Shown in pieces: positions 30,675 through 33,302 of a stretch of DNA of 64,000 nt; within the stretch, counting starts at the first letter, position 1; every line of letters starts with the position of its first letter. Both the position numbers and the translations under genes were made by a program. The notes below the pieces were generated by a model that saw only the letters and a program-made list of their open reading frames with translations, made no database searches and was not told the origin of the DNA. Origin of the DNA: Bradyrhizobium diazoefficiens. Lineage in GTDB: Bacteria; Pseudomonadota; Alphaproteobacteria; Rhizobiales; Xanthobacteraceae. The DNA is taken from NCBI RefSeq assembly GCF_016616235.1, contig NZ_CP067100.1, positions 6,011,001 to 6,075,000 on the forward strand, in the 5' to 3' direction.

Positions 30675-30995
30675 CTACGGCTCGATTTTGAGCGTCGCTT
30701 TCATGTTGGGATGATAGCGGCAGTAGTACTCGACCGTTCCCGCTTTCTTCAGAACTGAACTCGCCGACTTCTTCGGCGCCAGCGTCACGTCGAAATCGCC
30801 GTTCTTTGCCGTGGCGGTGTGGGCGAAGACGTCCTTGTTGATCCAGTTGATGGTGTCACCGACCTTCGCCGACACCTCGGCCGGTGCGATCACGAGATTC
30901 TCCATCGTGATCTCTATGGTCGCAGCATGTGCCGGGACGGCCATCGAGGCGAAGATGGCCGCAAGCGCGACCGATGCGAGGCGTCCCGGCTTCAT
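30675..30995 (-). CDS. Periplasmic cupredoxin (plastocyanin/azurin-like)
   Basis: This 106-residue protein has a signal peptide (MKPGRLASVALAAIFASMAV, cleavage near AHA-A) and a type 1 copper site: His59, Cys92, His95 and Met98 in EYYCRYHPNM. It should be a periplasmic electron carrier or copper chaperone. It follows the DUF4142 gene by 11 nt on the same strand, so it is under the ECF-type promoter at 31593-31622. Confidence 0.92.
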   Translation of the reverse strand: MKPGRLASVALAAIFASMAVPAHAATIEITMENLVIAPAEVSAKVGDTINWINKDVFAHTATAKNGDFDVTLAPKKSASSVLKKAGTVEYYCRYHPNMKATLKIEP

Positions 30996-31006: not shown

Positions 31007-31540
31007 CTATTTCAGCTCGGCCGCGACGTGCTCAGCGTGCTGCTGATGGCCCTGAAAGATCTTCAGGCCGGTTTGCAACAGGCTTTTCAGCTCGGCATTG
31101 CTCGCGGACGGAATGAGCTGGGTCTCCAGCGCACCGTTGACCGTCTTGTGATAGGCGACCTCGTTGGCGACATAGGCTTTGTCGAAGGCCGCGCCGCTGA
31201 GCTTGTCCAGCTCGGCGAGCTTGTCGCTCGCCTGCTTCGACAGTGCCTTGCTGGTGTCGTTGTCCTCGGGCGTGACGTTCAGCTTCTTGACCAGCGCCAG
31301 CGCCTGCTTGTTGACCGCCTCATGGTCGCGCAGCATGTCGTCGGCAAATGCCTTGACGTCCTTGTTCTTGGCTTTCTTCTGCGCTTGCTTGGCCGCGTTG
31401 ATGTCGATGACGCCGGCGGTGTAGGCGATATGCGCGATCTGGGGATCGGTGAGCTTGTCGGCAGCACGTGCGCCTTGCAGCAGCACGGGGCTGGACAACA
31501 GAATTGCCGCGGCGACCGCCGCGCTCCAACGGATGAACAT
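31007..31540 (-). CDS. DUF4142 periplasmic protein
   Basis: The 177-residue product has a signal peptide (cleavage near ARA-AD) and a ferritin-like four-helix DUF4142 domain, with KNKDVKAFADDMLRDHEAVN and LDKLSGAAFDKAYVANEVAY. Function of the family is unknown; it is often linked to envelope stress. It heads a two-gene unit with the cupredoxin and carries the same promoter motif as the upstream sigma-factor gene. Confidence 0.9.
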   Translation of the reverse strand: MFIRWSAAVAAAILLSSPVLLQGARAADKLTDPQIAHIAYTAGVIDINAAKQAQKKAKNKDVKAFADDMLRDHEAVNKQALALVKKLNVTPEDNDTSKALSKQASDKLAELDKLSGAAFDKAYVANEVAYHKTVNGALETQLIPSASNAELKSLLQTGLKIFQGHQQHAEHVAAELK

Positions 31541-31592: not shown

Positions 31593-31622
31593 ATTGGATG
31601 GACGTGTCGCGCAAAGGTTCCC
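31593..31622 (-). promoter_or_regulatory. Candidate ECF-sigma promoter of DUF4142-cupredoxin unit
   Basis: On the minus strand GGGAACC (31616-31622) is followed after exactly 15 nt by CATCCAAT (31593-31600). The same two blocks at the same spacing precede the sigma-factor gene. The downstream block lies 52 nt before the DUF4142 ATG. Confidence 0.75.
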
Positions 31623-31630
31623 GAAAAATT

Positions 31631-32320
31631 TCAGCCGCCAATTCCGAGCCGCTTCAGCACGGCAACTGTCAGCCGTTCGCATCGCCATCCAGCGAACGGG
31701 AATGCATCCATCATCACCGGACCGATCTCCTTCTCGACGTTCTCGCGCAACATGCCGCGGGCGCGATGCAGCCGGGTCTTTACCGTCTCGGGCTTGATGG
31801 TGAGTAGATCGGCAGTCTCCTCGACGCTCATGCCCTCCATGACCCGCGCGACGAAGACCATGCGGAAGACATCCGGCAACTCGTCGATGGCGCGTTCGAC
31901 GACGCGCTGGATTTCACGTTGGGCCATGGTCCTTTCCGGATCGCCTGCGGGAGAAACGGGGAATTTGATGATCTGCGCCTCGAGCGCCTCTTCCGGGACG
32001 GCACCGAGCTCAACATGCGGCTTTGCGCTTCGCACCCGGCCAAGCGCTTCGTTGATGGCGATGCGGGACAGCCAGGTCGACAGCCCGGACTCGCCGCGGA
32101 AGCCGTCGAGATGGGTGAAGGCACGGACATAGGTCTCCTGCACCACGTCCTCGGCTTCATTGTCGCTGCGCAGGATGCCGCGCGCGAGGCGGTAGAGCCT
32201 GCGGTTGTTGGCCTGCATGATCTCACGGAGCGCGGCCTCGTCCCGGCCTCGCGCCCGGTCGATCAGCTCGGCTTCAGACGTTCTTGGGCCGGTAGACAGG
32301 CCGGCTGCGGTCCGTTGCAT
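31631..32320 (-). CDS. ECF-family RNA polymerase sigma factor
   Basis: This 229-residue sigma factor has region 2 (LYRLARGILRSDNEAEDVVQ, TYVRAFTHLDGFRGES, LSTWLSRIAINEALGRVR) and region 4 (ELPDVFRMVFVARVMEGMSV, EETADLLTIKPETVKTRLHR). No anti-sigma gene is adjacent. A promoter-like motif identical in layout to that of the following unit lies 34 nt upstream, so autoregulation and control of DUF4142-cupredoxin are likely. The region 4 C-terminal tail (PFAGWRCERLTVAVLKRL) is longer than minimal ECFs. Confidence 0.93.
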   Translation of the reverse strand: MQRTAAGLSTGPRTSEAELIDRARGRDEAALREIMQANNRRLYRLARGILRSDNEAEDVVQETYVRAFTHLDGFRGESGLSTWLSRIAINEALGRVRSAKPHVELGAVPEEALEAQIIKFPVSPAGDPERTMAQREIQRVVERAIDELPDVFRMVFVARVMEGMSVEETADLLTIKPETVKTRLHRARGMLRENVEKEIGPVMMDAFPFAGWRCERLTVAVLKRLGIGG

Positions 32321-32353
32321 GGCGTTACCTGCTTGTGATCGTTGGTTTCAAAC

Positions 32354-32383
32354 ATTGGATGCAAGCTGGCACAAAAGGTTCCC
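32354..32383 (-). promoter_or_regulatory. Candidate ECF-sigma autoregulatory promoter
   Basis: GGGAACC (32377-32383) and CATCCAAT (32354-32361) on the minus strand are separated by exactly 15 nt, as at 31593-31622. The motif lies 34 nt before the sigma-factor ATG. Confidence 0.75.
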
Positions 32384-32432: not shown

Positions 32433-33302
32433 CTAGTCCGTCTCGATCGGCAGTGCCGGGTCCCTCGCCCACTCGCCCATCGAGGCATCGTACAGCGTCA
32501 GCTTGTCGTAGCCGAGTTGCGTCAGCATCAGCAGGTCGATCGTCGCCGAGATGCCGCCGCCGCAATACAGGATCACATTCTTGTTCCGCGTGACGCCCGC
32601 CGCGGCGAACCTGGCTTCGGCATCGGCAAGCGTCGTCAACGTCTTGTCGGCGGTCACGAGCGTTGCGGCCGGAAGATTGACGCTGCCGGGAACGCGACCG
32701 GGCCGGCCGTAGCGGCTGGGCTCGAGGCCTTGGTGAAACTGCGGCCCAAGCGCATTCACGATCACCGTCGAGGGATCGCCGATCCGCGCTCTGACGGTGT
32801 TCTTGTCGATGAACAAGCCCGCACGCGGTGTGGCCTGGAAGGTCGTTGCCGGATAGCCTTTCGGCGCACCGGTCTCAATTGGCCGTCCCTCATCCTTCCA
32901 TTTGTCGAAGCCGCCGTCGAGCACCTGCGCATCGACGCCGAGCGAGCGCAGCATCCACCAGAACCGCGTCGACCACATCATGGTGCCGATGCTGTAGAGC
33001 ACGATGGTTTTGGACGCATCGAGGCCATGGCGGCCGAACGCGGCTTCCAGCTGGGCGACATTAGGCATCATGAAGAACTGCTGTGCGGAAGCGTCGGAGA
33101 ACTGGCCTTGCAGATCGAGAAAATCGGCGCCCGGGATGTGGCCGGCGGCAAACGTCTTGTCACCGGGGACGGTACGATAAGGCACGTCGCTGCCCGGCGG
33201 GACCGGCTCGTTGTAGGTCGTGCAGTCGTAGAGGCGCAAGTCGGGATCGCCGAGAATGGCGGCGAGTTGCTCGGTGGTGATGAGGGGTGCCGGTTGGGAC
33301 AT
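32433..33302 (-). CDS. sseA: Thiosulfate/3-mercaptopyruvate sulfurtransferase (tandem rhodanese)
   Basis: This 289-residue protein has an inactive N-terminal rhodanese domain (HIPGADFLDLQGQFSD, LGVDAQVLDGGFDKWK) and an active C-terminal one with Cys247 in LYCGGGISA. The loop CGGGISA differs from the classical CRKGVT of thiosulfate sulfurtransferase and is nearer to the mercaptopyruvate type. The start at 33302 (MSQPAP) follows GGGAGAG; longer upstream reading runs into a repeat. Confidence 0.87.
   Translation of the reverse strand: MSQPAPLITTEQLAAILGDPDLRLYDCTTYNEPVPPGSDVPYRTVPGDKTFAAGHIPGADFLDLQGQFSDASAQQFFMMPNVAQLEAAFGRHGLDASKTIVLYSIGTMMWSTRFWWMLRSLGVDAQVLDGGFDKWKDEGRPIETGAPKGYPATTFQATPRAGLFIDKNTVRARIGDPSTVIVNALGPQFHQGLEPSRYGRPGRVPGSVNLPAATLVTADKTLTTLADAEARFAAAGVTRNKNVILYCGGGISATIDLLMLTQLGYDKLTLYDASMGEWARDPALPIETD

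Follow-up and report, generated by a model that had tools for sequence, protein, structure and literature searches.

The 64,000-nucleotide stretch of Bradyrhizobium diazoefficiens DNA analysed here (contig NZ_CP067100.1, positions 6,011,001 to 6,075,000; hereafter the window) contains a minus-strand locus in which the gene of an extracytoplasmic function (ECF) sigma factor is followed by genes encoding a DUF4142 protein and an amicyanin-like cupredoxin. This sigma factor is the counterpart of RpoE8 of Sinorhizobium meliloti and belongs to ECF29, a described but little-studied group. Based on the findings of this study, it very probably drives its own gene and the DUF4142-cupredoxin unit, with a distant folE operon as a probable further target, while its C-terminal tail is proposed to be inhibitory. 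Compared with the published account of RpoE8 (PMC6180224), the present analysis adds a family-wide census of sites, the likely folE unit and the conserved tail; it also names further candidate targets and proposes specific tail residues as the signal input, and its conservation data speak for a genuine DUF4142 promoter.

The sigma/DUF4142/cupredoxin locus

Read along the minus strand, the locus is arranged as promoter, ECF sigma gene, promoter, DUF4142 gene and cupredoxin gene, with the following features.

32354..32383, minus strand: predicted sigma promoter; −35 element GGGAACC at 32377-32383, 15-nucleotide spacer, −10 element CATCCAAT at 32354-32361; 33 nucleotides to the ATG
31631..32320, minus strand: ECF sigma factor of 229 amino acids; NCBIfam NF008888, 324 bits against a cut-off of 204
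31679..31702, minus strand: FPFAGWRC segment, sigma residues 207-214, located beyond region 4 and including Cys214; identified from tail conservation
31593..31622, minus strand: predicted DUF4142-cupredoxin promoter; −35 element GGGAACC at 31616-31622, 15-nucleotide spacer, −10 element CATCCAAT at 31593-31600; 52 nucleotides to the ATG
31007..31540, minus strand: DUF4142 protein of 177 amino acids with an N-terminal signal peptide (assigned by eye); PF13628, E 4.4e-39
30675..30995, minus strand: amicyanin-like cupredoxin of 106 amino acids with a signal peptide (assigned by eye); PF13473 and PF00127

An original prediction, made from the sequence alone, had named the three genes, and its assignments agree with the Pfam families, the sigma product matching sigma-70 regions 2 and 4 and the other two products matching DUF4142 and cupredoxin families. 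The cupredoxin displays the copper ligand pattern His...Cys-x2-His-x2-Met (read by eye), and solved amicyanins are its top matches in a sequence search of the PDB. In the same type of search the DUF4142 protein gave no match, and the matches of the sigma factor end at residue 207. It had also been stated that no anti-sigma gene is adjacent, which is borne out by the absence of an anti-sigma domain from the eight other window proteins to which the scan was confined.

The motif GGGAACC-N15-CATCCAAT had been reported twice on the minus strand, 34 and 52 nucleotides before the sigma and DUF4142 genes, respectively, with differing spacers. Both copies were indeed found, at 31593-31622 and 32354-32383. 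With start codons (ATG) at 32320 for the sigma gene and 31540 for the DUF4142 gene, the gap of 52 nucleotides was reproduced, but that before the sigma gene is 33 rather than 34 nucleotides. The spacers do not differ entirely: both open with TTT, which extends the common −35 block to GGGAACCTTT. None of 100 dinucleotide shuffles of the window contained a match, and an exact scan of the single-contig genome of 7,668,734 bases returned two matches, both at the sigma/DUF4142 locus, while the reversed pattern used as a control returned none. A site with three mismatches (L004) is present elsewhere in the same genome.

Correspondence to RpoE8 and group ECF29

The window sigma factor is identical to S. 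meliloti RpoE8 at 122 of 216 residues (56%), and RpoE8 itself scores 323.2 bits against NF008888. In S. meliloti, rpoE8 (SMb20592) is followed by SMb20593 and then by amcY, which encodes an amicyanin, and GGGAAC/GCATCCAA motifs have been described at rpoE8 and SMb20593 (PMC6180224). Two transcript starts were reported upstream of rpoE8, only one of them with the ECF29 motif, at which a start was located by 5' rapid amplification of cDNA ends (5'-RACE; PMC6180224). Measured against the consensus given in that source, GGGAAC / GCATCCAA, the sigma promoter of the window is an exact match, and its DUF4142 promoter has C in place of G before CATCCAA. The pSymB of S. meliloti R14 contains an identical copy of the published SMb20593 promoter, and its rpoE8 promoter departs from the published one at a single base of 39.

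The two systems share the order sigma, DUF4142, amicyanin, the presence of two matching promoters, the lack of an anti-sigma candidate, a match to NF008888 and an FPFAGxRCERLT tail. They differ in overall sequence, in the C (rather than G) preceding the DUF4142 −10 element of the window, and in the folE operon, a likely extra target in the window's genome. Further features associated with ECF29 were observed in the window, namely adjacent DUF4142 and amicyanin genes (as in all 81 loci described below), no nearby cognate anti-sigma gene among the eight other proteins scanned, and a C-terminal extension of approximately 35 residues beyond region 4.

PMC6180224 describes no anti-sigma candidate for RpoE8, leaves open what the motif upstream of SMb20593 means, terms the regulation of RpoE8 "a mystery" and states that no ECF29 factor had yet been studied in detail. 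ECF29 appears in Table 2 of PMC8999054 among factors that bear regulatory extensions, its model being a protein of Bradyrhizobium lablabi, and the ECF factors of B. japonicum are the subject of PMC3420878. No study of the locus of this particular strain was found in the literature searched.

Conservation of the locus and its promoter motif

Scored at E <= 1e-40, a single copy of the sigma gene occurs in each of 82 genomes out of the 117 of the genus, and the DUF4142 gene was found in the same 82. Eighty-one loci were read, these being the window and 80 of the 81 other sigma loci, and sigma, DUF4142 and cupredoxin occur in identical order and on an identical strand in every one of them. The locus left out is that of G198, where the motif strands suggest that the site before the sigma gene is reversed.

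Using GGAAC-N-CATCCAA with any spacer from 8 to 25, the motif was located upstream of the sigma gene in 73 of the 81 loci (spacer 16 in 71, 17 in two) and upstream of the DUF4142 gene in 79, invariably with a spacer of 16. Seven of the eight misses at the sigma promoter are one-base variants (CATCTAA or CATCGAA) at spacer 16 and the eighth is a reversed site (L116); both misses at the DUF4142 promoter are also one-base variants at spacer 16. By comparison, the remainder of the same loci (1.68 Mb, both strands counted) yielded a single match. Whereas the spacer is constant, the −10 element lies at variable distances from the aligned gene start (22-52 and 48-64 nucleotides at the two promoters), as is expected of a promoter.

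At the level of whole genomes, GGAACSTN14CATCCAAY was detected in 80 of the 82 sigma-bearing genus genomes versus one of the 35 that lack the sigma gene, with no match to the reversed controls in any of the 117; this co-occurrence was tabulated with a Fisher test in which relatedness is ignored. Extra sites in G214 and G194 (L132, L133) and in the sigma-less G172 (L134, L353) have neither an adjacent folE nor a recognised target, and were taken as chance matches.

Scanning 296 genomes of the family with GGAACCTN14CATCCAA revealed 72 sites in 52 genomes, against one for the reversed control. The gene that follows is the sigma gene at 38 sites, DUF4142 at 28, an accessory folE at three, a globin at one and another gene at two; where identical 28-base sites recurred across genomes the gene was read from one holding locus, the labels for G603, G656, G586 and G633 being borrowed in this manner. 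When 297 genomes of the order were searched with a stricter pattern, 13 sites turned up, distributed over 12 genomes. Eight of these sites are outside the family, and each is part of a locus encoding the same sigma type, six of them directly before the sigma or DUF4142 gene. With respect to the possibility, raised with the original prediction, that the motif is scattered at random positions, the outcome of the genome, genus and family scans favours the prediction. Conservation, fixed spacing, co-occurrence and the 5'-RACE start in S. meliloti (PMC6180224) strongly support the core of the initial proposal, namely that the ECF sigma factor is autoregulated, governs the DUF4142-cupredoxin unit as well and has no adjacent anti-sigma gene; a response to envelope or copper stress is a conjectural part of that proposal.

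The C-terminal tail and a proposed mode of action

The tail was examined in an alignment of 104 selected sequences (the window protein, 95 of 240 listed proteins and eight further loci), which is a selection and not the full set of homologues; the 103 relatives are 44-93% identical. Thirty-three residues are invariant in all 104 sequences, and the tail that follows region 4 contributes five of them (P208, F209, G211, R213 and C214). On average, conservation amounts to 0.81 in region 2, 0.75 in region 4, 0.53 across residues 195-205 and again 0.75 across residues 206-226. The tail cysteine is the sole cysteine in 74 of the 104 sequences, as it is in the window protein. The tail motif is absent from all four paralogous ECF proteins that could be read, seven of the 11 paralogue loci having given no readable frame.

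From this conservation we infer that the FPFxGxRC tail may stand in for the absent anti-sigma factor. The CorE-like factors (former ECF44) of Myxococcus xanthus offer a parallel, as they too have no anti-sigma factor and carry a C-terminal extension, to which sensing is attributed (PMC8999054). They differ from ECF29 in that their cysteine-rich C-terminal domain and linker CXC motif are not present in the window protein, the ECF29 tail having a single invariant cysteine.

In the mechanism that we propose, the sigma factor would recognise GGGAACC(TTT)-N-CATCCAAT and drive its own gene, the downstream DUF4142-cupredoxin unit, whose products would be exported, and probably also a distant operon comprising an accessory folE and a Rieske/FAD reductase gene. 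The invariant tail would block sigma activity until a redox-type signal in the cytoplasm is received, perhaps at Cys214, whereupon autoregulation would amplify the response. Of these elements, the motif, its spacing, the gene set, its co-occurrence with the motif and the conservation of the tail are established by sequence comparison.

The folE operon as a likely third unit

A third site in the genome of this strain, GGGAACCTTTTCCGATCGCAGCCGTCCAAG, is located upstream of an accessory folE gene (GTP cyclohydrolase I), one of two folE copies in this genome.

G000:C1:5548977-5549676 (L135), outside the window: folE paralogue preceded by an ECF29-like promoter; the next gene encodes a Rieske/FAD reductase

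Among 30 folE loci, the site is present in 20 of the 21 with at least 76% identity and in none of the nine more distant ones. The folE −10 element of a second clade is the standard CATCCAA, and in other lineages folE is positioned directly upstream of the sigma gene (L257 and the Mesorhizobium plasmid L356). L356 also carries a reversed site near folE. A search of the open-access literature found no paper linking folE to ECF29. The sequence data suggest that folE and the Rieske/FAD reductase gene are likely to be a third unit of the regulon in this genome.

Contrary evidence and alternative explanations

Several observations weigh against the regulon as proposed. When rpoE8 was overexpressed 126-fold in S. 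meliloti, no target went up, and amcY was 2.6- to 3.2-fold higher in strains lacking rpoE8-SMb20593 (PMC6180224). Two of the 72 family sites (G654 and G557) have no recognised target, and in genome G237 (L116 5386-5902) the reversed site upstream of the sigma gene faces a 150-codon reading frame resembling a small membrane protein. The folE −10 element in the window's clade reads CGTCCAA rather than CATCCAA. Furthermore, two sigma-less genomes retain folE together with its site, namely G024, where the best relative of the sigma factor reaches only E 1e-13, and G232, which falls outside the 82 sigma-positive genomes, and this retention weakens the assignment of the folE operon. Regarding the failed activation of targets upon RpoE8 overexpression, it fits an inhibitory tail but would also fit a sigma factor that was simply silent in those conditions.

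This same experiment bears on the suggestion, which we consider a minority possibility, that the tail is not inhibitory and that the sigma factor is active whenever it is made, its transcription being under the control of another regulator. The two starts upstream of rpoE8, only one with the ECF29 motif (PMC6180224), and the transcriptional control of other ECF groups that have no anti-sigma factor (PMC8999054) are consistent with such an arrangement; however, a 126-fold excess should then have activated targets, which it did not (PMC6180224), and the tail segment is as conserved as region 4. Somewhat less likely still is that the folE-Rieske operon of the window's clade stands outside the regulon and is read by a different sigma factor, such as EcfG of the general stress response. 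Its CGTCCAA element and the absence of the sigma gene from G024 and G232, two of the 27 genus genomes in which this variant occurs, would favour this, whereas the −35 element and spacing are unchanged, the second clade has CATCCAA, and folE adjoins the sigma gene in other lineages.

It is very improbable that the motif is no sigma promoter at all but an operator to which some other regulatory protein binds. In favour of this, overexpression of RpoE8 activated no target in S. meliloti (PMC6180224); against it, the motif is an asymmetric pair of blocks with fixed spacing and a variable distance to the start codon, it is lost together with the sigma gene, and it matches the published ECF29 consensus and 5'-RACE start (PMC6180224). 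The assignment of the sigma factor to ECF26, the sulfite-response group of S. meliloti RpoE1 and RpoE4, is scarcely credible. That group resembles the present one in comprising autoregulated ECF factors with a copper protein in the regulon (azu2 in that of RpoE4; PMC3511301), and a rhodanese-type sulfurtransferase gene (32433-33302) is located directly upstream of the sigma gene in the window. For ECF26 factors the anti-sigma partner is encoded downstream and the promoter recognised is GGAATA/GT (PMC6180224), whereas in the window DUF4142 and cupredoxin genes come next and the promoter is GGGAACC / CATCCAAT. As the rhodanese gene is near the sigma gene in just 42 of the 81 loci, it was rejected as a member of the system and is probably a mere neighbour. 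On the promoter, the missing anti-sigma gene and this non-conserved neighbour, the ECF26/sulfite reading was rejected in favour of the ECF29 assignment.

Further candidate targets and gene contexts

In four Bradyrhizobium-type genomes (five loci: L131, L342, L343, L344 and L350) the motif precedes a globin gene whose product has an apparent signal sequence, the Pfam match being weak at 23.7 bits (cut-off 21). The surrounding genes were read at four plasmid loci. On plasmid p1 of Shinella zoogloeoides (L358), the ECF29 locus is situated between cbb3 oxidase genes and genes for nirK (copper nitrite reductase) and NnrS, a denitrification-like context, and on the Mesorhizobium plasmid L356 a group III truncated haemoglobin is encoded near the ECF29 locus. 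The globin and the nitrite reductase, NnrS and haemoglobin neighbours hint at a nitrosative or redox context.

It is conceivable, albeit speculative and in our estimation the less probable case, that ECF29 factors are self-sensing, the short FPFxGxRC hook with its one invariant cysteine replacing an anti-sigma factor and responding to a redox or nitrosative signal in the cytoplasm. In that event the regulon would constitute a small conserved stress kit composed of an exported copper electron carrier and the DUF4142 protein, a spare GTP cyclohydrolase paired with the Rieske/FAD reductase, and an exported globin in some lineages. In a distant alphaproteobacterium (L257 6116-6860), the motif is also found before the gene of an exported-looking protein of 221 amino acids that has no Pfam match.
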